A stretch of DNA of 64,000 bases. Source: Actinoallomurus bryophytorum (GTDB lineage Bacteria; Actinomycetota; Actinomycetes; Streptosporangiales; Streptosporangiaceae). Location of the stretch: positions 1,054,001 to 1,118,000 of the forward strand of contig NZ_VFOZ01000002.1 in NCBI RefSeq assembly GCF_006716425.1, written 5' to 3'. Made by a program: the position numbers and the translations under genes. The notes below the pieces were generated by a model. It saw only the letters and a program-made list of their open reading frames with translations, was not told the origin of the DNA and ran no database searches. Below are positions 46,963 to 64,000 of this stretch, piece by piece. Position 1 is the first letter of the stretch. Each line of letters begins with the position of its first letter.

Positions 46963-48081
46963 GTGCGAAAGCGGATTTCACGGCGGCCCCTCCTGGCGGC
47001 GGGCGGCGCGGCGGGCCTCCTCATCCTGGCCGTACCGGCGCTGAGCCTAGCCGGGTCACCGGGCCGGCCGGCGCCGTACAACAGCCCGATCGGCGGGCCG
47101 AAGTGGACCTACGGCTCCCGGTCCCAGCCCCTGCGGTCGCAGGCCAGGCGCGCGGATGAGGGCTACCGGGCGTACGTCGCGCTGGCCGGCGGCTACAGCG
47201 TCTCAACGATCGACGTGGCGACCCGTACGATCATCGGGAAGGGCATCTCGACCGACGCGGGGCAGGGTGTGGCGGCCACGCCCGACGGCAAGAAGCTCTA
47301 CATCGCCAACACCGGCCAGTACGACGTCCTCGCGGCGGACGCGGTCACGCACACCTCGCTGTCGGTGCGCGTCGGCCCGTACCCCCAGGACGTCGCGGTC
47401 TCCCCCGACGGCCGCAAGGTGTACGCGACGGTGACCGGCGGCGACACCGGCGCCGGCGGCTCGGCCGTCGTCGCGGTGATCGACACCGCGACCGACCAGG
47501 TCGTGCGCGACATCCACGTCGGCACGGCGCCTCGGCAGGTCGTCTTCAGCAGGGACGGCGCGCGGGCCTACGTCACCTACGCCGGCGGCGTCTCGGTGAT
47601 CGACGCCGCCGAGGACAGGGTGGTGCGCTCGATCCGCGACCCGGCCGGCCCGCAGGGGATCGCGGTCGACCCTGCCGGCCGGCGCCTGTACGTGGCGGAG
47701 CCGCAGGCCGGACGGGTGTCGGTGATCGACGCGGCGACCGGCAAGGTACGCGGCAGGATCGCGGCCGGTGACCAGCCGTGGGCCGTGGACGTCACCCCCG
47801 ACGGCTCGAAGGTCTACGTCGCGCGGATGAACGACAACGTGGTCTCGGTGGTCGACACGGCGAGCCGCAAGGTGATGGCCTCGATCGGCGTCGGGAAGCT
47901 GCCCCAGTCGGTCGCGGTCACCCCGGACGGCTCGGAGGTCTGGGTGGGCAACGGGTTCTCCGGAGACGTGTCGGTGATCGACGTGGCCTCCGGCACGGTC
48001 GTCGCGACCGTCGCCGGCGGCACCGGCACCAAGCCGCTGAACGCCGCGCCGCTCGGCCTGGCGTTCGGGAGGACGCCCTGA
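46963..48081 (+). CDS. YVTN-type beta-propeller protein, exported
   Basis: This 372-residue protein has a signal or membrane-anchor segment (SRRPLLAAGGAAGLLILAVP) and then about seven beta-propeller blades, each with the pattern V(A/S)PDG-K-VY and VSVIDxAT. Such propellers act as binding scaffolds in the envelope. The GTG start with AAGGGA seven bases upstream is preferred; another GTG 11 codons earlier overlaps the phosphoesterase stop by eight bases. The pair is probably one operon. Confidence 0.88.
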   Translation: MRKRISRRPLLAAGGAAGLLILAVPALSLAGSPGRPAPYNSPIGGPKWTYGSRSQPLRSQARRADEGYRAYVALAGGYSVSTIDVATRTIIGKGISTDAGQGVAATPDGKKLYIANTGQYDVLAADAVTHTSLSVRVGPYPQDVAVSPDGRKVYATVTGGDTGAGGSAVVAVIDTATDQVVRDIHVGTAPRQVVFSRDGARAYVTYAGGVSVIDAAEDRVVRSIRDPAGPQGIAVDPAGRRLYVAEPQAGRVSVIDAATGKVRGRIAAGDQPWAVDVTPDGSKVYVARMNDNVVSVVDTASRKVMASIGVGKLPQSVAVTPDGSEVWVGNGFSGDVSVIDVASGTVVATVAGGTGTKPLNAAPLGLAFGRTP

Positions 48082-48096
48082 CGGACCGGGGCGAAG

Positions 48097-48115
48097 TGAC
48101 CTCGTCGCGAGGTCA
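48097..48115. terminator. Short hairpin between beta-propeller and YceI genes
   Basis: TGACCTCG and CGAGGTCA form an 8-bp stem with loop TCG, overlapping the YceI stop codon between converging genes. Confidence 0.5.
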
Positions 48116-48688
48116 GGAGTCGGCGCGGACCGCCTGGATCTGCAGGCCGATCTCGATCTCGTCGCCGAGCATGAGCCGGTCACCCTGCAGCGGAATGTTG
48201 AACTCGATGCCGTAGTCCGAGCGCAGGATCCGGGTGGAGGCGGTGAAGCCGGCGCGGACCCCGCCCCACTGGTCGACACCGGCGCCGTGGAACTCCGTCA
48301 GCAGGCTGACCGGCCGGGTCATGCCGCGGATCGTCAGGTCACCGTCGACGGTGTAGCGAGGGTGGCGGGCACGCCTGCCGGTACGCGCGTGGGAGACGGA
48401 CGTCGCGGTGAACGTGATGTGCGGGTGGGCGGCGGCGTCGAGGATCTGGGGCGAGCGGATGAGCTCGTCGCGCTCGGCGTTCCTGGTGTCGATCGAGGCG
48501 ATGGTGATCTCGGCGTGGGCGGAGGAGGCGAAGGGGTCCTCGGCGATGTCGATGCGCCCGCCGAACGCGGTGAAGACACCTCGTACGGTCGTCATCATGT
48601 GACGCACGCTGAAGGTGATCTCCGAGTGCCCTGGGTCGATGCGCCACGTGCCGGCGGCGAGACCCGGTGCGGTGATGGTCTCCGTCAT
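48113..48688 (-). CDS. YceI family protein
   Basis: This 191-residue lipocalin-like protein shows the YceI signature: TWRIDPGHSEITFSVRHMM at the start, IDTRNAERDELIRSPQILD in the middle and GDRLMLGDEIEIGLQIQA at the end. Family members bind isoprenoid-like lipids such as polyprenyl chains. No signal peptide is seen, so it is probably cytosolic, as for many actinomycete members. The ATG sits close behind AAAAGGA, which overlaps a triplicated motif. Confidence 0.93.
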   Translation of the reverse strand: MTETITAPGLAAGTWRIDPGHSEITFSVRHMMTTVRGVFTAFGGRIDIAEDPFASSAHAEITIASIDTRNAERDELIRSPQILDAAAHPHITFTATSVSHARTGRRARHPRYTVDGDLTIRGMTRPVSLLTEFHGAGVDQWGGVRAGFTASTRILRSDYGIEFNIPLQGDRLMLGDEIEIGLQIQAVRADS

Positions 48689-48693
48689 GTCCT

Positions 48694-48729
48694 TTTCCCC
48701 GAACTTCCCCGAACTTCGACTTCCCCGAA
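48694..48729 (-). promoter_or_regulatory. Triplicated TTCGGGGAAG motif before the YceI gene
   Basis: On the YceI strand TTCGGGGAAG occurs twice and TTCGGGGAAA once, at spacings of 16 and 10 bp, the last merging with the ribosome-binding site. The arrangement could be an operator or a translational control site. Confidence 0.4.
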
Positions 48730-48878
48730 GCCGTGCTGTCGAGCGCACCAATGTAGTTGAAACGGCACCCAGAACGCACATCAACCGTCGATTCGCGTCA
48801 CATAGGACACTGGTGGTACACGGTCGGTCTGTACGGGCTTCGACCCTAACGACCCTTTTGACGGCCCCCGGACACGCC

Positions 48879-48915
48879 GAACGCCCTGCCGCATCGAGGA
48901 TGCGGCAGGGCGTTC
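48879..48915 (-). terminator. Terminator of the glt operon
   Basis: GAACGCCCTGCCGCAT and its exact inverse form a 16-bp stem with loop CGAGG, 20 bp beyond the gltD stop. Confidence 0.85.
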
Positions 48916-48936
48916 GTGACCCTCAGTGGCCGGCCG

Positions 48937-50400
48937 TCAGACGAGCGGCCTCGCGGTGGGCGGGATGGCGGTCGGCAGGGCCGTACGGCCCATCAGCCAT
49001 TCGTCCACGCCGGCCGCCGCGGACCGCCCCTCCGCGATCGCCCACACGATGAGCGACTGCCCGCGGCCCATGTCGCCGGCGGCGAAGACGCCCTCGACCG
49101 AGGTGGCGTACGCGCCGTCGCGTACGACGTTGCCGCGCTGGTCCAGCTCGACGCCGAGCTGGTCGAGCAGGCCCTCACGCTCCGGGCCGAGGAAGCCCAT
49201 GGCGAGGGTGACGAGCTCCGCCGGTACCTCACGCTCGGTGCCGGGGATCGGCTTGAAACCGTTCCCCGGTCCCTCGACGTCGACGAGCCGCAGGGCCTTC
49301 AGCCGCCCGTTCTCGTCGCCGACGAACTCCTGCGTGGAGACGGCATAGGCGCGCTCCCCGCCCATGTCGCGCAGTTCCTCGTGGGCGGTCTCCATCTTGA
49401 ACAGCATCGGGTAGGTCGGCCACGGCTGAGCGTCGGGCCGGGCCTCCGGCGGCCGCGGCATGATCTCCAGCTGGGTGACCGAGCGCGCGCCCTGGCGTAC
49501 GGCCGTGCCGACGCAGTCGGCGCCGGTGTCACCGCCGCCGATCACGATGACGTGCTTGCCCTCGGCCGAGATCGGCGAGGCGGTCAGGTCGCCCTCCTGC
49601 ACCCGGTTGGACAGCGGCAGGTACTCCATCGCCTGGTGGACGCCGTCCAGTTCACGGCCGGGTACGGGCAGGTCGCGCCAGACGGTGGCGCCACCGGCCA
49701 GCACGACCGCGTCGTAGGCCTGGCGGAGTTCCTCGCCGGTCACGTCGGCCCCGACGTTGACCGAGGCGCGAAAATCGGTGCCCTCGGCCCGCATCTGGCC
49801 GATCCGGCGGTCCAGATGCTCCTTCTGCATCTTGAACTCCGGGATGCCGTAGCGCAGCAGCCCGCCGATCCGGTCGGCGCGCTCGAACACGACGACGTCG
49901 TGGCCGGCGCGGGTGAGCTGCTGGGCGGCGGCGAGCCCGGCCGGGCCGGAGCCGACCACCGCGACCCGCTTCCCGGTCTTGACCGAGGGCGGACGCGGGG
50001 TGACCCAGCCTTCGGCGAAGGCCCGGTCGATGATCTCCACCTCGACGCGCTTGATCGCGACGGGTTCGGCGTTGATGCCCAGGACGCAGGCGGACTCGCA
50101 CGGCGCGGGGCACAGCCTCCCGGTGAACTCCGGGAAGTTGTTGGTCGCGTGCAGGCGCTCGATCGCCTCGCGCCAGGCGTCACGGTGGACCAGGTCGTTC
50201 CACTCGGGGATGAGGTTCCCCAGCGGGCAGCCGTTGTGGCAGAACGGGATGCCGCAGTCCATGCATCGTGCCGCCTGCTTGTTCAGCGAGTCCGCGGGGA
50301 AGTCCTCGTACACCTCGCGCCAGTCACGGATCCGAACGTCGACCGGGCGGCGCTTCGGGAGCTCGCGCGGATGGGTCATGAAGCCCTTAGGGTCGGCCAT
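48937..50400 (-). CDS. gltD: Glutamate synthase small subunit
   Basis: This 487-residue NADPH-dependent subunit feeds electrons to GltB. Two cysteine clusters for [4Fe-4S] centres are visible (CMDCGIPFCHNGCPLGN and CPAPCESACVLG), then the FAD fold VAVVGSGPAGLAAAQQL and the NADPH fold VIVIGGGDTGADC, and the closing FAAGDMGRGQSLIVWAI. GGGGGAG precedes the ATG. It follows gltB by 10 bp and ends at a strong terminator. Confidence 0.98.
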   Translation of the reverse strand: MADPKGFMTHPRELPKRRPVDVRIRDWREVYEDFPADSLNKQAARCMDCGIPFCHNGCPLGNLIPEWNDLVHRDAWREAIERLHATNNFPEFTGRLCPAPCESACVLGINAEPVAIKRVEVEIIDRAFAEGWVTPRPPSVKTGKRVAVVGSGPAGLAAAQQLTRAGHDVVVFERADRIGGLLRYGIPEFKMQKEHLDRRIGQMRAEGTDFRASVNVGADVTGEELRQAYDAVVLAGGATVWRDLPVPGRELDGVHQAMEYLPLSNRVQEGDLTASPISAEGKHVIVIGGGDTGADCVGTAVRQGARSVTQLEIMPRPPEARPDAQPWPTYPMLFKMETAHEELRDMGGERAYAVSTQEFVGDENGRLKALRLVDVEGPGNGFKPIPGTEREVPAELVTLAMGFLGPEREGLLDQLGVELDQRGNVVRDGAYATSVEGVFAAGDMGRGQSLIVWAIAEGRSAAAGVDEWLMGRTALPTAIPPTARPLV

Positions 50401-50410
50401 GTCTCCCCCT

Positions 50411-54982
<4,572 letters not shown>

Positions 54983-55151
54983 CAACCCTCCCGTCGTCTC
55001 GTTCTGCTCCTTCATCAGTGCAGTCCGGGACGACGTTGGCCCTGCTGCGGTGACTAGAGGTTACAGCACTGTCTGTTTCATCCCCGACGCGACATGATCG
55101 CGAAACTTACCGAGCTGTACCCATCTAGTCTCAATAAGTAGTCTGGCCCGT

Positions 55152-56141
55152 TTAATTCCGATGAAACAGGAACTGCTTGGCTGCCTGCTGGACGGACGAA
55201 CTCGGGCTGATCGTGTCGATCCCGTAGTTGCTGCCCGGGGCGCCGTCGACGCGCCCGGCCCAGCCGACCACGACGAAGTGCCCGTACGCGCCGCTCTGGG
55301 CACCGGTCTGGGCGGTCTTGCCGAACTTGTCCACGGGAGAGGCCCCGGTCAGCGGCACGAAGAAGCCCTTGCCCGACTTGGGGTCGAGGTCGTCGAGGAA
55401 GGCGTTGGCCGAGGTGACGTCCTTGAGGTTGAAGATCGCGATATGCCCGACCCACTTCTGGTCGGCGGAGACGTACGCGGCGCGGACCACCTGGGTGCAC
55501 CCGTAGCCCTGCAGCGCCGTCTGGAGCGCGGGGCCGGACACGGTGCTGCCGCAGACGGTGTCGAGCCGGCCGGTGCCCTGCAGGTTGAACACCGTGTTGT
55601 CCGAGGTGTCCTTGTAGGCCTTGGCCTCCGAGTCGGCGAACACCTCCTCCAGGGTCAGCGGTTTGCTGTCCTGGGCGGCGGTGTTCAGGCTGTCCCACAG
55701 CGACCAGGACTTCATCGAGTTGTAGCTCGCCGGCTTGTTCGGCATGGCGGCGGCGGCCGGCGGGTTCGCGGCCGGTGACGAGCCGGCCGCCGAGGGCGAC
55801 GCGGTGGGGCTGGCGTCGTCATCGCTACCGCTGGCGGCCAGGAAGTACGCACCGCCCAGGGCGCCGGCGACGACGACGAAGGCGATGGCGACCACGATCG
55901 CGATGAGGCCGCCGCTGCTCTTCTTGGGCGGCGGCATCGGGGGCGGGCCCATCGGCGGGCCCATGGGCGGCCCCGGGGGCAGCATCTCCGGGCCCTGCCA
56001 GCCTTGTACGGGGGGCGGAGGGTACCCGCCGGGCTGCTGGGGCATGCCGTACCCGCCCTGCGGTGGCGGCGCTCCCCAACCGCCGGGCTGGCCTCCGGGC
56101 GGTGGCTGGCCGGGCCCCATGGGTGGGTAGGGGTAGCTCAT
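55152..56141 (-). CDS. Single-pass membrane protein, paralog A (Pro/Gly-rich cytosolic tail)
   Basis: This 329-residue protein has a cytosolic tail rich in Pro, Gly, Tyr and Met (1-74), one membrane segment (78-103), a Ser/Pro/Ala linker and an extracytoplasmic domain. The domain matches the two genes upstream: KPLTLEEVFAD, Cys197, GCTQVVRAAY (Cys215), IFNL, DPKSGKGF, and GHFVVVGWAGRVDG. The two Cys are 18 residues apart in all three proteins, suggesting a conserved disulfide. AAGGAGAT fixes the ATG. It lies 136 bp upstream of gltB. No named family is recognised and function is unknown. Confidence 0.85.
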   Translation of the reverse strand: MSYPYPPMGPGQPPPGGQPGGWGAPPPQGGYGMPQQPGGYPPPPVQGWQGPEMLPPGPPMGPPMGPPPMPPPKKSSGGLIAIVVAIAFVVVAGALGGAYFLAASGSDDDASPTASPSAAGSSPAANPPAAAAMPNKPASYNSMKSWSLWDSLNTAAQDSKPLTLEEVFADSEAKAYKDTSDNTVFNLQGTGRLDTVCGSTVSGPALQTALQGYGCTQVVRAAYVSADQKWVGHIAIFNLKDVTSANAFLDDLDPKSGKGFFVPLTGASPVDKFGKTAQTGAQSGAYGHFVVVGWAGRVDGAPGSNYGIDTISPSSSVQQAAKQFLFHRN

Positions 56142-56310
56142 CTCGATCTCCTTGGGGGGCACCGCACAATCGGTGAATGAGTAGAGCTTAGAACGTGATT
56201 CGCGACCTTTGCCTGGTTCCTGGCGTTAGATCCTTGAGGTGCTGCGCTATTGATATTGACCACTGACGCTTGCGCGGGCTGACAGGCGCCGCTGACTGCC
56301 TGCGCTGCGA

Positions 56311-58257
56311 CTACCCGGTCGCGCGCAGGAGGACCGCGTTCGGGCGCCCGGCAGTCACCAGCAGGGACAGCAGGGCGGCGTCGCTCTCGTCCCCGGAGCC
56401 GTCGGCGCGCTGCACCCATGTGATCACCGCGTAGTGGCCCATCGCGACGCCGCGTGCGGTGCTGAACGCCTGCCCGAACGGCGGCGAACGGGGCGGGGCG
56501 AGCGGGAAGCCGTTCCCCGACCTCGGGTCGGCGCTCGCGACGACACGGTCCGCGGCCTGCGCATTCGCCAGATTGAAGATCGTCACAAGGGCGCCGAAGT
56601 GCTTGTCTGAGTAGGTGGCGCGCGCGGTCTGGGTACAGCCGCCCTGCTGGAGCAGGCCGGCGAGCCGGGTCCCCCAGATGGCCACCGTGCAGTGGGAGTC
56701 CAGCCGGGAGGCGGTCAGCTTCAATGTCGCCTTGGCGTCGGTGTCGCTGATCTTCTTGGTGGCGAACGCCTCGGCCGCGGTGAGCGGCTTGGGATCCTTG
56801 GACCGCTCGGCGATCGCGGCGAACGCCGCCGTCGAGGCCGCCTGGGAGTACGCGGAGGCGCCCGGCCCTTCCGCCTGGACGTCATTCACGTCCGGGGCGG
56901 CCGCGCCATGACCACCACCGCCGCCCCTGCCCAGGACCAGCACGGCGGCGGCCACGACCACGGCGAGGACGACGATCACACCGGCGGCGGCGAAGAAGGC
57001 GACCGGGGGTACCGGGCCCTTGCGCGGTGGACGCCGCGGGGTAGTCCGCTCGCCGGACTCGGCGGGTCCCCGCCGCCCCCGTCGCGGCCGCCGTGCGGAG
57101 CGCCGCCCACCAGGCTCACCACCGGCATCCTCCGGCGGGTACTGCCCCTCAGACTCGCCGTAGCCACCCGGGCCAAGGTCCTGGGGATACTGCCCCTCAG
57201 GCTCACCGAATTCGCCCTGGCCTCGGCCTCGGCCTCTCCCGCCGCGACCGGCGGGCGCACTCTGGCCTCGGCGCGGAAGCCGCGAGGAGCGCCGCCCACC
57301 AGAACCCTCCGGTGGGTACTGCCCCTCGGGGGCGCCGTAGGCGCCCTGGCCGACGTCCGCGGGATACTCCGCACCGGGCTCGCCGTAGGCACCCTGACCA
57401 GAGGCCGGTGAATACCGTCCCCCGGGCTCACCATGGGCACCCTGGTCCAGGTTCCCCGGATACTCCGCATCGGGCTCCGCGGCGCCCCGCCGCCCTCGAC
57501 GCGGACGTCGCGAAGAACGCCGCCCACCACCAACACCGTCCGGCGGGTACTGCCCCTCAGGCTCGCCGTAGCCACCCGGGCCAAGGTCCTGGGGATACTG
57601 CCCCTCAGGCGCGCCGAACTCGCCCTGGCCTCGGCCTTGGCCTCTCCCGTCGCGACCGGCCGGCCCACTCTGGCCTCGGCGCGGAAGCCGCGAGGAGCGC
57701 CGCCCACCAGAACCCTCCGGTGGGTACTGCCCCTCGGGCGTGCCGTAGGCGCCCTGGCCGATGTCCGGCGGGTACTGCGCGCCAGGCTCGCCGTAGCCAC
57801 TCTCACCGAAGCCCGGAGAGTACTGACCCCCGGGCTCACCGTAGGCACCCTGGCCAGGGTCCGGCGGATACTCCGCACCGGGCTCCGCGGCTCCCTGCCG
57901 CCCTCGGCTCGGACGCCGCGAAGGGCGCCGACCACCAGGCTCACCGCTTACGCCCTGGGGCGGATACCGGCCCTCGGGGGTGCCGTAGGCGCCCTGGCCA
58001 AGGTCCGGCGGGTACTGCGCGCCAGGCTCGCCGTAGGCGCCCTGACCGACGCCTGGAGGGTATTGACCTCCAGGCTCGCCGTAGGTGCCCTGGCCAAGGT
58101 CGGGGGGATACTGCCCCTCCGGCTCACCGAAACCGTTCTGGCCTCGGGGCCGCCCGCCGGGGCCGTTCTGGCCTCGGCGGGGACGTCGCGCGGAGCGTTG
58201 CCCCTCGGGCTCGCCGCGTCCGCCTTGGCCCTGGCGGCGTCCGGGCCGACCGGCCAT
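56311..58257 (-). CDS. Single-pass membrane protein, paralog B (417-residue repetitive cytosolic tail)
   Basis: This 648-residue protein has a very long amino-terminal cytosolic tail (1-417), one membrane segment (418-443) and the same extracytoplasmic domain as its neighbours (KPLTAAEAFA, Cys523, GCTQTARATY with Cys541, IFNLANA, DPRSGNGF, GHYAVITWVQRADG). The tail is made of 16-residue units of the type GQYPPDLGQGAYGEPG separated by Arg/Gly blocks such as RRPRRGRRG, organised as a 136-residue super-repeat present twice plus a partial copy. It starts 4 bp after paralog C. The tail should be disordered. Function is unknown. Confidence 0.85.
   Translation of the reverse strand: MAGRPGRRQGQGGRGEPEGQRSARRPRRGQNGPGGRPRGQNGFGEPEGQYPPDLGQGTYGEPGGQYPPGVGQGAYGEPGAQYPPDLGQGAYGTPEGRYPPQGVSGEPGGRRPSRRPSRGRQGAAEPGAEYPPDPGQGAYGEPGGQYSPGFGESGYGEPGAQYPPDIGQGAYGTPEGQYPPEGSGGRRSSRLPRRGQSGPAGRDGRGQGRGQGEFGAPEGQYPQDLGPGGYGEPEGQYPPDGVGGGRRSSRRPRRGRRGAAEPDAEYPGNLDQGAHGEPGGRYSPASGQGAYGEPGAEYPADVGQGAYGAPEGQYPPEGSGGRRSSRLPRRGQSAPAGRGGRGRGRGQGEFGEPEGQYPQDLGPGGYGESEGQYPPEDAGGEPGGRRSARRPRRGRRGPAESGERTTPRRPPRKGPVPPVAFFAAAGVIVVLAVVVAAAVLVLGRGGGGGHGAAAPDVNDVQAEGPGASAYSQAASTAAFAAIAERSKDPKPLTAAEAFATKKISDTDAKATLKLTASRLDSHCTVAIWGTRLAGLLQQGGCTQTARATYSDKHFGALVTIFNLANAQAADRVVASADPRSGNGFPLAPPRSPPFGQAFSTARGVAMGHYAVITWVQRADGSGDESDAALLSLLVTAGRPNAVLLRATG
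57061..57876 (-). repeat. Two 408-bp coding super-repeats in paralog B
   Basis: Residues 128-263 and 264-399 are two copies of one 136-residue block with the same order of YPP units and Arg/Gly linkers. A third, partial and more diverged relative covers residues 48-127. Antisense frames are open across the array only because of its composition. Confidence 0.85.
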
Positions 58258-58261
58258 CGCG

Positions 58262-59044
58262 CTATCCGCCGACTAGGACGAGGCGCTCCCAGACGAAGTC
58301 GTCGGCACGCTCGATGGCGATGCTCGCGTCCAGCAGCTCGTTCATGGTCTGCGGCTGCGCGCCTCCGGCGCGCTCGACCCAGCTGATGACCACGTAGTGG
58401 CCGAACGACTGGGAGTAGGCGGCGCTGAACCCGCTGCCGAAGTTCTCCGTGCCGGCGGCCGTCAGCGGTGAGACGAATCCGGCGCTGCTGGCCGGGTCCA
58501 GGTCACGGACGACCTGCTCGGCCCCCTGCAGTCGCTCGAGGTTCATCGCGATGAACTGGCCGAGGTACTTTTTGTCCTGGGTCACGTACGCGCCGCGCGC
58601 CACCTGGGTGCAGCCGTACTTGCGCAGGTCGTTCTGGAGCTCCTGGCCCCAGGTGACCGAGGCGCAGTCCGTCAGGTCCGAGCCCACGAGCGTGAAGTTG
58701 TACGCGCCGTGCTTGACGGACTTGGCGTCGTCGCCGAAGACCTCGCTCTTGTTGAGCGGGCGCTTGTCCTTGCTGCGCTCGTTGAGCTTGTTCACCAGCG
58801 AATTGGCGGGCGTGTTGACGTACACCTTCGGCGACACCCGCGCGGCGGCCGCCGCTTCGCTCTTCTTGCCGTCGCCACCGCCCAGGGCCACCAGGGCCAC
58901 CGCGACGACCACGACGATGACGGCCAGCGCCGCACCACCGATGATCAGAAGATTTCGGTTGGAGCGGCGCGGCCGGCGGCGCCTGCGGGAACTCTGTCGT
59001 CCCTCGCCGCCGTCGTAACCACTGTCATAACCCGTCTCGCTCAC
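58262..59044 (-). CDS. Single-pass membrane protein, paralog C (short Arg-rich cytosolic tail)
   Basis: This 260-residue protein has a 30-residue tail that is Gly/Tyr-rich then Arg-rich (RRRRRPRR), one membrane segment (31-54) and the shared extracytoplasmic domain: RPLNKSEVFGD, Cys127, GCTQVARGAY with Cys145, MNLERLQGAE, DPASSAGF and GHYVVISWVERAGG. The GTG start matches the short tail; a longer open frame upstream adds residues without a ribosome site. It is the first of the three tandem paralogs in the direction of transcription and follows the VIT gene by 93 bp. Confidence 0.85.
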   Translation of the reverse strand: MSETGYDSGYDGGEGRQSSRRRRRPRRSNRNLLIIGGAALAVIVVVVAVALVALGGGDGKKSEAAAAARVSPKVYVNTPANSLVNKLNERSKDKRPLNKSEVFGDDAKSVKHGAYNFTLVGSDLTDCASVTWGQELQNDLRKYGCTQVARGAYVTQDKKYLGQFIAMNLERLQGAEQVVRDLDPASSAGFVSPLTAAGTENFGSGFSAAYSQSFGHYVVISWVERAGGAQPQTMNELLDASIAIERADDFVWERLVLVGG

Positions 59045-59137
59045 GAGCGGTGAGCTTAGCGAACGTCGGGCCGTGGCAGGTCCATATCGCCATCCCGCCA
59101 TGAGCCGCCCCGACCCGTACGGCGAGGTTCGCGCACG

Positions 59138-59866
59138 TCAGACGCTGTTGGTGCCGATCAGGGATCCGACCACGAAAGTGATGGCGGCGGCGGCACCACC
59201 GAGGGTCAGCTGCCGGAGACCGCCGTACCACCACGACCGTGCGGTGACACGGGACACCAGTGCCCCGGCGCCGAACAATCCGACCGCGGCGAGCATGGCG
59301 GCGGGCCAGAGGCTGGTCGCGCCCAGGAGGTAAGGGAGCACGGGCAGGCATGCGCCGACCGCGAACGACAGGAACGAGGATCCGGCGGCGAGCACCGGCG
59401 AGGGCAGGTCGCCGGGGTCGATGCCGAGCTCCTCGCGGGCGTGCACCCCGAGTGCCTCCTCGGGGTCTCGGGACAGTTGCCGTGCGACCTCGCGGGCCAG
59501 CTCGGGATCGAGGCCACGGGCCTCGTAGAGCTGCGCCAGCTCGAGCTCCTCGGCCTCGGGCCGGTGTTGCAGCTCCCGCCGCTCGACCTCGATCTCGGCC
59601 TGGGCCAGCTCGGCCTGCGAGGCGACGGAGATGTACTCCCCCGCCGCCATTGAGAACGCGCCGGCCGCCAGCCCCGCCAGCCCGGTGAGCACGATCACCT
59701 GATGGTGCGCGCGGCCGCCGGCCACCCCGGCGATCAGGGCGAAGTTGGAGACCAGCCCGTCCATGGCGCCGAACACGGCGGGGCGCAGCCACCCGCCGGT
59801 CACGTCGCGATGCTCGTGATGGATCTCGGCTCGCGCGCCGCTGGTGGCTGCGTCCTCGACGCTCAT
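59138..59866 (-). CDS. VIT1/CCC1 family transporter
   Basis: This 242-residue membrane protein belongs to the vacuolar iron transporter/CCC1 family, which moves Fe2+ or Mn2+. FGAMDGLVSNFALIAGVAGG and GAFSMAAGEYISV are family signatures. The cytosolic metal-binding region is Glu-rich (EIEVERRELQHRPEAEELEL) as in eukaryotic VIT1. GGGGAGG five bases upstream fixes the ATG. It follows lgt by 16 bp and probably shares its transcript. Confidence 0.93.
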   Translation of the reverse strand: MSVEDAATSGARAEIHHEHRDVTGGWLRPAVFGAMDGLVSNFALIAGVAGGRAHHQVIVLTGLAGLAAGAFSMAAGEYISVASQAELAQAEIEVERRELQHRPEAEELELAQLYEARGLDPELAREVARQLSRDPEEALGVHAREELGIDPGDLPSPVLAAGSSFLSFAVGACLPVLPYLLGATSLWPAAMLAAVGLFGAGALVSRVTARSWWYGGLRQLTLGGAAAAITFVVGSLIGTNSV

Positions 59867-59882
59867 GGAGCCTCCCCGCGGG

Positions 59883-61322
59883 TCAAGAGGTCCTCTCGCC
59901 CGGCTCGCCGCCGGTCGAGGCCTTCTCTCTGCCGCCGTCCTTGCCGTGATCGGTCCCACCGGGCTCGCCGGGCGCCTCGGGCTCGGCCGTGTCGCCGGGC
60001 TCTCCCGCGTCCGCGGTGCCCGCGCCGTTCGGCTCCACCTCGACGGCCTCGTCGTGGACCTCCCGTACGGGGACGTCGCCCGGCCCGCCGGCGTCCGCGC
60101 CGTTCGACTCCACCTCGACAGGCTCGTCGTGGACCTCCCGTACGGGGACCTCGCCGGAGTCCGCGCCGCTCGGCCCCGCCTCGGCAGGCTCGACCTCGGG
60201 TGCGGGGACCTCGCCCGGCCCGCCGGCATCGGCGCCGTTCGACTCCAGCTCGTCCCGTACGGGGATCTCACCGGCGTCCGCGTCGTTCGACCCCGCCTTG
60301 ACGGGCTCGGACGGCACTTCCGTCTCACCGGCGGTCTCGTCCTCGTCCGAGGGCTTGTCCTGCGGCGTCTCCGGCTCGTCACCGGGTGAGCCCGGGGTGC
60401 CGGCCCCCTCGGGCGCCTCTGCGGCCGCAGCGGAGCTCTCCTCCGCCGTGGCGGCGGAGGCTTCGGTCTCGGTCTCCTCGGCGGGCGTGCCGACCGCGCC
60501 CTCCGGGATCGTGGTGCGGTCCCGGTAGACGTAGAGGTAGGCGACCGCGCCGAGGAAGACGATCAGCGAGGTCCAGTCGTTGAGGCGCAGGCCGAGGATG
60601 TGGTGGGCCGAGTCGACGCGCAGCCACTCGATCCAGGCCCGTCCCACGGTGTAGGCGGCGACGTACAGCGCGAAGGTGCGGCCGTACGCCAGCCGGAAGC
60701 GCTTTTCCGCCCAGATGACCAGCAGGGCCACGCCGACGCACCACAGCGACTCGTACAGGAACGTCGGGTGGTAGGTGCCGATGTCGGGGGTGTTCGCCGG
60801 ACGGTGCGCCGGGTCGATCTTGACCGCCCACGGCAGCGTGCTGGGGCGGCCGTACAGCTCCTGGTTGAACCAGTTGCCCCAGCGGCCGAGCGCCTGCGCC
60901 AGGGCGATGCCCGGCGCGGCGGCGTCGGCGAAGACCCGCAGGGATATGCCACGGCGCCGGCAGGCGATGTAGGCACCGAGAGCGCCGGCCGCGATGGCGC
61001 CCCAGATGCCGAGGCCGCCGTTCCAGACCTCGAGGGCGCCGACCGGGTGCCAGTTTTTACCGAAGTAGAGCTGGTAGTCGGTGATGACGTGGTAGAGGCG
61101 CCCGCCGACCAGCCCGAACGGGACCGCCCACACCGCGACGTCCACGACCGTGCCCGCGGCGCCGCCTCTGGCGGTCCATCGCCGCTCGCCGAGCCAGACG
61201 GCGGCGATGACCCCGAGAATGATCATCAGGGCGTACCCGCGGAGGGGCAGGGGCCCGAGGTGGACGACCCCTTGCGAAGGGCTGGGTATGTAGGCGAGCG
61301 GCTGCTGCATGGGAAGTGACAT
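59883..61322 (-). CDS. lgt: Prolipoprotein diacylglyceryl transferase with long acidic tail
   Basis: Lgt transfers diacylglycerol from phosphatidylglycerol to the lipobox Cys of prelipoproteins in the membrane. Residues 1-~280 are the seven-segment enzyme with LPLRGYALMIILG, GGRLYHV and the signature GRWGNWFNQELYG holding the essential Arg. The E. coli His103 position reads Trp (GLGIWGAI), as is common in actinobacteria. A ~190-residue tail follows, rich in Glu, Asp, Gly, Ala and Pro, with repeats of VPVREVHDE and SNGADAGGPG type. The tail is far beyond the usual length. The start ATG has no strong ribosome site; an ATG four codons in is possible. Confidence 0.95.
   Translation of the reverse strand: MSLPMQQPLAYIPSPSQGVVHLGPLPLRGYALMIILGVIAAVWLGERRWTARGGAAGTVVDVAVWAVPFGLVGGRLYHVITDYQLYFGKNWHPVGALEVWNGGLGIWGAIAAGALGAYIACRRRGISLRVFADAAAPGIALAQALGRWGNWFNQELYGRPSTLPWAVKIDPAHRPANTPDIGTYHPTFLYESLWCVGVALLVIWAEKRFRLAYGRTFALYVAAYTVGRAWIEWLRVDSAHHILGLRLNDWTSLIVFLGAVAYLYVYRDRTTIPEGAVGTPAEETETEASAATAEESSAAAAEAPEGAGTPGSPGDEPETPQDKPSDEDETAGETEVPSEPVKAGSNDADAGEIPVRDELESNGADAGGPGEVPAPEVEPAEAGPSGADSGEVPVREVHDEPVEVESNGADAGGPGDVPVREVHDEAVEVEPNGAGTADAGEPGDTAEPEAPGEPGGTDHGKDGGREKASTGGEPGERTS
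60020..60290 (-). repeat. Repeats in the lgt acidic tail
   Basis: Two copies of a ~25-residue unit (VPVREVHDEPVEVE then SNGADAGGPG) and two partial relatives are encoded here. At DNA level the antisense reading CTCGTCGTGGACCTCCCGTA recurs exactly. Confidence 0.7.
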
Positions 61323-61366
61323 TACCGGCTATGAGAGACGGGTCGATGACGATCAGGTGGCGAAGT

Positions 61367-61406
61367 GACCGCCGTCCTCCGGTGTGAACACCGGCGGACG
61401 GCGGTC
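61367..61406 (-). terminator. Terminator between the DsbA-like gene and lgt
   Basis: GACCGCCGTCCTCCGGTG pairs with CACCGGCGGACGGCGGTC with one mismatch, an 18-bp stem with loop TGAA. It ends the MauE-DsbA unit. Confidence 0.8.
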
Positions 61407-61421
61407 GTACCTACCTTCTCG

Positions 61422-62240
61422 TCACTTCTTGGCCGTCGCCGACGGGCTGGCCGCCGGTGCGCTCGGCGGCGAGCTCGCCGCTGCGGGCTTGGCGGCGAGG
61501 ATGGCCTTCTCGAGGTTCTTCGCGTTGAGCAGGGTGCTGTTGAGGTCCATCGACTGCCCGTTGAGGAAGACGGTCGGAGTCCCGGTCACCTTGCGGGTGG
61601 TCTCGGCGTAGTTGGTCATCGAGTCGATCTGCGACTGCTTCTGGTTGCCGTTCACACACTGCTGGAACTGCGGAGTGGCGAACCCGAGGTCCTTCGCCCA
61701 GCCGATGAGGTCCTTGTTGGAGAAGCCGTTCGAGCCCTCCGCGGGCTGGTGCTTGTAGATCGTGTCGTGGTACTGGATCCACTTGTCCGCGGGGGCGCAC
61801 AGGGCGGCGTTGGCGGCGCGCTGGGAGTTGCCCCGGATCGGATCGGGCTGCTGCTTGAACAGCCAGAACGGGTAGTACAGGACGTTGACCTTGCCCTCGG
61901 CGGCCAACCTCTTGATCGTGCTACCGCTGGAGTTTTCGAACTCATGGCAGATCGGGCACTGGAAGTCCTCGAAGAGCTCCAGTTTGGGGGCCTGGGCACC
62001 CGGCTTGGACGCGAGGATCGCCCCGTCGCTCTGGCGGGTCGCGGGAGCGAGCGCTCCGGAGTAGGTGCTCGTGTCCTTCTTGTTGACGAAGTACACCGTG
62101 ATGACCACGGCCAGCGCCACAATGACAAGCCCGCTCAGGGTGATCATCAGCCGCCGCGTCCGCTGCTGCTTCTGCACCTGACGCTTGCGTTCCTCCGCCA
62201 GCCGCTCGCGGGCCGACCGCTGTCGAGCGGCCTTACTCAT
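61422..62240 (-). CDS. Membrane-anchored DsbA-like thiol oxidoreductase
   Basis: This 272-residue protein has a basic cytosolic start, one membrane segment (32-51) and an extracytoplasmic thioredoxin-fold domain with active site CPIC (Cys95, Cys98) in FEDFQCPICHEFE and cis-Pro loop GTPTVFLNG. Two further Cys (in NAALCAP and FQQCVNG) may form a structural disulfide. It is predicted to oxidise or isomerise disulfides in exported proteins. It follows the MauE-like gene by 38 bp. Confidence 0.94.
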   Translation of the reverse strand: MSKAARQRSARERLAEERKRQVQKQQRTRRLMITLSGLVIVALAVVITVYFVNKKDTSTYSGALAPATRQSDGAILASKPGAQAPKLELFEDFQCPICHEFENSSGSTIKRLAAEGKVNVLYYPFWLFKQQPDPIRGNSQRAANAALCAPADKWIQYHDTIYKHQPAEGSNGFSNKDLIGWAKDLGFATPQFQQCVNGNQKQSQIDSMTNYAETTRKVTGTPTVFLNGQSMDLNSTLLNAKNLEKAILAAKPAAASSPPSAPAASPSATAKK

Positions 62241-62278
62241 CTGGTCTCCTCTGAAATTTCGTTTAACGGCTCAGGTGC

Positions 62279-62791
62279 TTAGAGCCCGAGCCAGCGATCG
62301 AGCGCGGCCTTGCCGCGCGGGAACACCATGAGCCAGGCCGCCAGAACGAGGAAGCCGAGGTCTCGGAAGATCTCCCTAAGGTAGTGGGTCTGGCCCTTGG
62401 AGACCTGCCCCCCACCGCCGAAACAGCCGCAGTCGATGGCCAGCCCTCGCGCCCACACCGAGATGATCCCGGCGATGAAGACGACGAACAGCAGGCCGAC
62501 GCAGATCGCCATGGTCCGTGTGGCGAACCCGAGCAGGATCATCGCGGCGAGCGCCATCTCCAGCACCGGCAGGCCGAGCGCCACGGGCGCGACCATGCTC
62601 TGCGGCAGGATCCGGTAAGAGGACACTGCGACCTTCTGCAGCCCCTCCGCCTCACTGAACTTGGCAAATCCGGCGATGCCGAGAATGGCCGCGAGCGCGA
62701 CGCGGACCACCAAGGTGATCCACTCCTGCTGCCGCAGCAGGGCACGCGGAACTCTCTGTCCGCCTCCGGCGGCCGCCATCTCTCCAGCCAC
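62279..62791 (-). CDS. MauE/DoxX-like membrane protein
   Basis: This 170-residue protein has four membrane segments and a CxC pair (Cys121, Cys123) in AIDCGCFGGGGQVSKGQ, the MauE hallmark. MauE-type proteins work in extracytoplasmic thiol redox chemistry, and the adjacent DsbA-like gene suggests the two form an oxidising couple like DsbB-DsbA or VKOR-DsbA. AGGA seven bases upstream supports the GTG start. Confidence 0.92.
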   Translation of the reverse strand: MAGEMAAAGGGQRVPRALLRQQEWITLVVRVALAAILGIAGFAKFSEAEGLQKVAVSSYRILPQSMVAPVALGLPVLEMALAAMILLGFATRTMAICVGLLFVVFIAGIISVWARGLAIDCGCFGGGGQVSKGQTHYLREIFRDLGFLVLAAWLMVFPRGKAALDRWLGL

Positions 62792-63677
62792 AGTCGTTTC
62801 CTAACGGTTTCGCGATCCGGCGCGCGCCAGCTTAGGCGGTGAACCATAAGACCGCTGTCAAGCGCGCGGGCAACATCCTGTCACTTTCGTGCTTGCGGTG
62901 AGTGGCTGAGGGGGGGTCCTGTGGATAACCGCCATCGCGAGCCGAGTCCAGGTAGACGCGTCGCGAGGCGCGGGCGGGAGTCCGTCCGGGTCCGGCGCCG
63001 CACGTCACGCCGATCCGGTTCCGCTCGACGGAGACGACCTCGTCTTCGCCACGTACGAGTCCGAGCGTCAAGGGCGAGGCCCTACGCCGCGACCCGCGTC
63101 CGCGTGGACGACACCCTGCCGATCCGACGACGCGGCCGGACGCCACCCTGGCGCCCTGCGGCGAGCCGGCAGGGCTCCCCTCCTGCTGGGCGGCGCCCAG
63201 CAGGCCACCTCGCGACATCGGTCGTCGGCCGACGCCAGGCTCCCCCGCCCTGCGGCGCGCCGCCTGGACCTCGCCCGCTACGGACGGATTCGTCCGACAC
63301 GCCTGGGCGCGTCCGACAGACCCGTGATCGAGGTCCGCCCGCCGCTTGCCGCCGGTCACCCGACCTACGCCAGGCTCCCCGCCTTACGACGTGCCACCTG
63401 ACACGCCCCTTACGAACGGGATCCGTCCGAAACACCTCGGTGTGTCCGACAGACCCGTGATCGACGTCCGCCCGCCACGTCGCCGCCGGTCACCCAACCG
63501 ACGCCAGGCTCCCCCGCCCTGCGACGCGCCACCAGAACACCGCCCCTCACGGACGGGATCCATCCAAAACACCTCGGCGCGTCCGACAAACCCGTGATCG
63601 ACATCCGCCCGCCACGTCGCCGCCGGTCACCCGGCCGACGTCAAGCCCCCCGCGACGCGTCGCCTGAAAACCGCTCC
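62792..63677. other. Gene-free stretch between the MauE-like gene and trpA
   Basis: No gene is supported. The first ~300 bases show nothing recognisable; the rest is a tandem array related to the MITE-like element. Confidence 0.6.
63234..63677. repeat. Tandem array of ~135-bp units related to the MITE-like element
   Basis: Units beginning GCCAGGCTCCCC start at 63234, 63369 and 63503, with a shortened GTCAAGCCCCCC unit at 63640 (spacings 135, 134, 137). Read on the minus strand each contains TGTCGGACG, CGTAGCGGGCG and GTCCAGGCGGCG-type boxes that match the elements at 23.1 and 29.4 kb. The array ends at the trpA stop codon. Confidence 0.75.
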
Positions 63678-64000
63678 CTAAGAGCGGGTGCCGTCCAACA
63701 CGCCCTGGCGCCGGACGCCGGCGGCGAGTTCGGCGGTGAGTTCGCGTATGGACTTCAGGCCCTCCTCCGGTGAGGGCGCGTCGAGCAGCCGGCGGATGAA
63801 CGCCGAGCCGACGATCACGCCGTCGGAGAAGGCCGCGACCTCGGCCGCCTGCACGCCGTTGCTCACGCCCAGGCCGAGGCCGATGGGCAGCCGGGAGCCG
63901 GGTGCCATGGCCTTGCGGGTGCGTTCGACCAGGCGGGCGGCGCCCGTGTCCACGGCCGAGCGCGCCCCGGTGACGCCCATGACGGACGCGGCGTAGACGA
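63678..64000 (-). CDS. trpA: Tryptophan synthase alpha chain (C-terminal part; 5' end outside window)
   Basis: The last ~107 residues of TrpA are present. The enzyme splits indole-3-glycerol phosphate to indole for the beta subunit. [14 protein letters not shown], the phosphate-binding [21 protein letters not shown] and [13 protein letters not shown] are conserved. The gene runs off the right edge; trpB should lie beyond. Confidence 0.93.

Follow-up and report, generated by a model that had tools for sequence, protein, structure and literature searches.

Three tandem paralogues between lgt and gltB of Actinoallomurus bryophytorum belong to an unnamed family of predicted membrane proteins with a conserved cysteine pair

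The stretch of DNA analysed here (the window) comprises 64,000 nucleotides of the soil actinomycete Actinoallomurus bryophytorum (assembly GCF_006716425.1, contig NZ_VFOZ01000002.1, positions 1,054,001 to 1,118,000) and carries three tandem genes, here called A, B and C, whose products are homologous. Each consists of an N-terminal tail, a single hydrophobic helix predicted to span the membrane, and an outer domain, and each has exactly two cysteines, 18 residues apart and both in the outer domain (Table 1). By the positive-inside rule the N-terminus is predicted to lie inside the cell. AAGGAG lies six bases before ATG 56141, and with this codon as the start of C the gap between B and C is 169 nt. 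A can be aligned from residue 1 in one relative locus (L007; L and G numbers are our own labels for loci and genomes).

The outer domains align far above chance in blastp (seg filtering, database size set nominally to 1e8 letters): A and B share 38% identity (E 8.7e-24), A and C 37% (E 4e-28), and B and C 36% (E 7e-17). This bears out a sequence-only reading of the window, which had proposed three tandem membrane-protein paralogues with cysteine pairs at residues 127/145 (A), 523/541 (B) and 197/215 (C) and with differing cytosolic tails; the pairs are the sole cysteines of the proteins, and about 30, 420 and 78 residues precede the helix in A, B and C. The shared motifs that it listed stand in outline and not letter for letter, since A reads RPLNKSEVF and GCTQVARGAY, so that neither KPLT nor R-A is common to the three.

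Four further members, beyond the view of the sequence-only reading, lie elsewhere in the same genome, two between truA and rplM and two preceding subtilase genes; for annotators, the genes at these three genomic places form one family. The nearest named relatives come from three species of Actinoallomurus and from a strain that is filed under Actinomadura sp. DC4, and A, B and C stand in the same order in all four relative loci fetched. A profile of five own-genome outer domains, used for both the order and the phylum search, matched 150 of 150 sampled genomes of the order (146 from a single family) one to ten times each, and at least 11 of 296 genomes in the phylum sample, the own genome among them (at most 11 candidates scored per genome). 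With a profile of 85 domains and at most eight candidates scored per genome, at least 14 of 396 genomes matched, namely the own genome, 11 of a genus that is Streptomyces-like by gene content (f5 g42 in our numbering), one of family f9 and one of f6.

The 85 domains are 16-91% identical to A, and C57, C75 and R80 are their only invariant positions. In the 92 domains that were read together with their neighbouring genes, both cysteines occur in 92 and the arginine in 91. The two cysteines are also found in 18 of 19 further matches, and L189, an 80-residue partial match (25 bits), is without them; a profile search favours conserved residues, and a branch lacking cysteines could escape it.

The domain turned up in all 150 genomes sampled from the order, yet no family model reaches its cut-off. 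Neither Pfam nor NCBIfam has a model over its curated cut-off for A, B, C and ten relatives, in agreement with the earlier remark that no named family was recognised, and PHROGs, scanned without a cut-off, gives a best E of 0.013. The weak library matches lie mostly on the tail and helix, such as that of residues 20-89 of A to NF038083 (CU044_5270 family; E 4.9e-6, 26.6 bits where the cut-off asks for 100), and one of the 85 outer domains matches DUF3866 (E 5.3e-4). Matches to PADLOC PD-T4-6 (1.9e-4 and 2.1e-3) span the tail, helix and start of the outer part and were set aside as compositional. The literature searches made found no title or abstract on the family.

Loci for the synteny set were picked by domain match, independent of their neighbours. 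Five came from the phylum search, twenty mostly from the lower part of a 27-genome match list and ten from second matches of the f5 genus, with high-scoring pairs added for the lgt and truA types; they are a subset of all family matches in the searches. The lgt type has 29 of the 92 domains in 15 loci (gltB seen in 14), the truA type 27 domains in 21 loci that carry truA and/or rplM, and the subtilase type 35 domains in 25 loci where a same-strand subtilase gene follows directly downstream. One domain (L131:3830-4378), a divergent or partial match, lies outside all three neighbour sets. Twelve loci read later include seven of the lgt type (14 domains), two of the truA type, one of the subtilase type (L188), and two with none of the usual neighbours (L187:1566-2177 and L189:1170-1409), which are low-scoring divergent or partial matches. 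The suggestion in the sequence-only reading that other actinomycetes have such genes between gltB and lgt is supported, with lgt present in all 22 loci of this type that were fetched and gltB in 20, the other two being at contig ends. A CAP-superfamily secreted protein adjoins truA-rplM members in several genera (L010:11152-11970, L077:8357-9718, L083:14325-15164).

The three locus types correspond to three clades. A maximum-likelihood tree of the 92 domains, a quick search without bootstrap in which 31 of 89 inner branches are weak, puts the lgt group (99) and the subtilase group (95) each on one side of a branch, and the locus labels require three changes, the minimum possible. Judged by hhalign between clade profiles (lgt-truA 99.8, truA-subtilase 99.4, lgt-subtilase 94.1), the three clades are homologous. 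C has a long branch and was apparently added in Actinoallomurus and in strain DC4, because lgt loci of other genera hold one or two members.

The subtilases next to the third clade are mycosin-like. Four of those tested match TIGR03921, the mycosin model of the type VII secretion system, with E values of 5e-45 to 1e-75 that fall short of its cut-off. The domain-linked subtilases of G277 (338.6 bits) and G320 (324.1 bits) exceed this cut-off, which is 278.75 bits. By eye, the domain-linked subtilases with a clear start begin with a signal peptide, no propeptide is seen, and a hydrophobic stretch is found near the C-terminus in 34 of 35 frames (the exception is L121). The lack of a propeptide had prompted the idea of one acting in trans, which was dropped when the fold pointed elsewhere. 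In all eight tandem subtilase pairs (L113-L120) a simple pattern search, which may miss variants, finds no Asp motif in the second copy; in the L073 subtilase (L073:4741-5958) such a search finds none of the three catalytic motifs. These motif-poor subtilases, each preceded by a family domain, are possible pseudoproteases.

No ESX genes were recognised by eye within 3-6 kb in nine listed domain-mycosin loci, where neighbours identified by Pfam in a sample include ThiF/rhodanese, methyltransferase DNA-binding, SseB, DUF1844 and alanine-racemase genes. Among 17 control loci around other mycosin matches, one has a family domain (L165, an additional subtilase-type locus that was already on the 27-genome match list), L168 has a chance-level match (E 0.21), and in eight a WXG100 or FtsK/SpoIIIE protein adjoins the mycosin; two further suspected cases (L154, L155) gave no Pfam match. 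Having either the domain or ESX neighbours is only a tendency, because several control mycosins have neither, for example L152 and L164, whose other neighbours resemble those of L165. In the twelve genomes from which the control loci came, the mycosin model finds between 1 and 17 proteins per genome at E <= 1e-20, a count that includes other subtilases. To our knowledge, the role of mycosins outside ESX clusters is unexplained. The pairing with mycosin-like genes away from ESX, above all, together with the predicted fold and the cysteine pair, gives testable leads on function.

It is possible, but unlikely, that the family serves mycosins everywhere, with the outer domain as a mycosin chaperone, cap or regulator and the lgt and truA copies acting in trans. 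One entire clade adjoins mycosin-like genes (35 of 35 domains) and is homologous to the other two, and the domain-linked mycosins look like a separate class next to the control loci, 16 of 17 of which lack the domain and eight of 17 of which have WXG100 or FtsK/SpoIIIE neighbours. Such a general role fits poorly with L152 and L164, which by eye have neighbours resembling those of L165 and have a mycosin-like gene but no domain, and with the window, where no subtilase marker lies beside A-C (48001-64000). It also fits poorly with nine of the 27 listed genomes (G005, G011, G012, G018, G021, G024, G026, G031 and G080), in which all matches were read: each holds two members at lgt and a single one at truA, but no mycosin-linked member. 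In G036 the lgt pair stands alone. These genomes indicate that the lgt type has a role of its own.

The minus-strand gene order in the window is a MauE/DoxX-like gene, a DsbA-like gene, lgt, a VIT1-family gene, A, B, C and gltB. Such neighbours, together with the cysteine pair in 92 of 92 domains, would suit extracellular redox or folding sensors with a reversible cysteine pair, in which disulfide loss under secretion stress alters the action of the tail inside. Such a mechanism is proposed for the Streptomyces kinase CutS; the report on it (PMC12802291) describes two conserved sensor-domain cysteines, C85 and C103, with the same spacing of 18, and activation of the system when they are replaced by Ser. 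This is nevertheless improbable: a structural disulfide is equally expected to give a conserved pair, the truA and mycosin clades keep the pair yet no DsbA marker was seen in their loci, and Pfam and NCBIfam find no kinase or effector domain in the family proteins.

The Lgt of the window ends in a 209-residue acidic C-terminal tail (59883-60510, net -47). At family loci 15 of 15 Lgt tails are acidic and the neighbouring family tails are nearly all basic. In eight control genomes, where no family member was found nearby, the main Lgt is also acidic (net -10 to -44; a second weak match is +3), so the acidity is not special to family loci, and a charge pairing with the basic family tails was dropped.

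Table 1. Genes, protein parts and neighbouring features of the A-B-C locus (window positions)
Feature	Position	Strand	Remarks
Gene A	58262..59044	-	260 aa from GTG; alternative ATG 59101; start codon unsure
A, tail			Arg-rich, ~30 aa (from GTG 59044)
A, membrane helix	~58889-58954
A, outer domain	58265-58834
A, Cys127 codon	58664-58666
A, Cys145 codon	58610-58612
Gene B	56311..58257	-	648 aa; begins 4 nt past end of A
B, tail			~420 aa, Arg/Gly/YPP-repeat-rich
B, tandem duplication in tail	57117..57937	-	period 408 bp = 136 codons, 2.0 copies, 89% match
B, membrane helix	~56926-57000
B, outer domain	56314-56859
B, Cys523 codon	56689-56691
B, Cys541 codon	56635-56637
Gene C	55152..56141	-	329 aa from ATG 56141; GTG 56162 would yield 336 aa
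C, tail			Pro/Gly/Tyr-rich, ~78 aa
C, membrane helix	~55836-55910
C, outer domain	55155-55727
C, Cys197 codon	55551-55553		204 in 336-aa numbering
C, Cys215 codon	55497-55499		222 in 336-aa numbering
gltB, glutamate synthase large subunit	50411..55015	-	downstream neighbour; four glutamate synthase domains
VIT1-family membrane protein gene	59138..59792	-	upstream of A; VIT1 1.5e-69; start provisional
lgt, prolipoprotein diacylglyceryl transferase	59883..61322	-	LGT 3.1e-65
DsbA-like thioredoxin-fold protein	61422..62240	-	Thioredoxin_4 3.4e-19, DSBA 2.7e-10
MauE/DoxX-like membrane protein	62279..62791	-	MauE 8.1e-25

The tails differ between clades: the median length before the helix is 159 residues for truA members, 55 for lgt members and 43 for subtilase-linked members, all with unsure starts and wide ranges. 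The B tail grew by the 136-codon duplication and also holds 48-bp units; the open frames of B in four relatives are shorter (398-470 aa against 648). Among close relatives, the tails of A and B are 35-77% identical against 58-92% for their outer domains, and that of C 69-79% against 59-85%. The tails had been called interchangeable, which does not hold as stated: those of A and B diverge faster than the outer domain, but that of C is about equally conserved, so that by these comparisons the tails look specific to each paralogue.

Predicted models of the outer domain have the mycobacterial PknH sensor as a putative fold match in both fold comparisons. TiME (7cu8/7cu9) ranks second and third in both, and an Rv0999 orthologue (4tmd) falls within second to fourth place; against solved PDB structures by sequence profile, the best match is an antibody chain (E 0.62). 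The outer domain is thus predicted to have a PknH-sensor/TiME-like alpha+beta fold, which is consistent with the earlier description of an outside sensor or binding domain; the ligand or signal is putative. The TiME likeness could also point to accessories that handle lipids or glycolipids, as TtfA does for MmpL3, or to envelope-growth scaffolds organised by the tails, a more remote idea than either of the alternatives above. TtfA offers a precedent for an accessory role (PMC10171966). Counting against it, no transporter was recognised by eye among the neighbours of A-C and a fold does not settle function. The link also runs through the identity of TiME with TtfA (Rv0383c), and these bacteria are not known to produce mycolates.

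The preferred reading, held with somewhat less than even confidence, is that A, B and C are single-pass envelope receptors or adaptors, N-inside, whose outer domain lies outside the membrane and binds a partner there, probably a protein. One disulfide between the conserved cysteines would hold the alpha+beta domain, the low-complexity tail would make cytosolic contacts that differ from paralogue to paralogue, and the two or three members encoded in an operon probably function jointly. For the subtilase clade, the partner would most likely be the membrane-anchored mycosin-like subtilase of the next gene; for the clade of the window, the MauE/DoxX-like, DsbA-like and Lgt neighbours suggest a protein that is exported or lipidated, or else the machinery that these neighbours encode. 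A receptor or adaptor role is suggested because an outer domain on one helix adjoins a membrane protease, or export and lipidation genes, with longer average tails where the protease is absent. Adjacency of distant relatives to membrane-bound proteases is a first functional lead on this unnamed family. In a broader and doubtful version, this actinobacterial family of receptor-like proteins may form ESX-independent modules with membrane-anchored mycosins, the outer domain taking the place of EccB to hold or control the mycosin (sometimes a pseudoprotease) on the extracellular side and relay its state across the membrane, and the lgt-gltB and truA-rplM copies would be protease-free, long-tailed offshoots that report on envelope protein maturation.

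Among known systems, the PknH sensor (PF14032 PknH_C; PDB 4esq) may resemble the outer domain of the family in fold, and the report on it (PMC3601408) gives precedent for a fold with a cleft and describes two disulfides, whereas A, B and C have one cysteine pair each and no kinase domain was found in them. The PknH_C and family profiles barely align (hhalign 3); PknH_C is not among the matches of A, B and C at E<=1, and two of the 85 members match it (best E 0.046), none in the own genome.

TtfA serves mycolate transport, which would be unexpected in the family hosts. DUF7373 (PF24088) matches four of the 85 members (best E 6.5e-5), none in the own genome and not A, B or C at E<=1, with an hhalign value of 73.6 over the C-terminal half only (reversed control 0.1; single clades 2.4-35.2). 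Five DUF7373 members fetched look by eye like lipoproteins with a second domain, unlike A, B and C, and a literature search on DUF7373 found nothing.

The EccB-MycP pair of type VII secretion is a further analogue, a membrane protein with an outer domain that, like the family's, may bind a membrane-anchored mycosin. No EccB model is among the Pfam or NCBIfam matches at E<=1, the sole approach being TIGR03931 (Rv3446c) at 0.23 over the helix of C. A structural role as mycosin partner has precedents, namely MycP5 capping EccB5 (PMC8131196) and mycosins stabilising ESX membrane complexes (PMC5082899). An EccB-like partner would be expected to lie next to a mycosin gene; A-C in the window have none adjacent, but the subtilase clade of the family does in all 35 cases.
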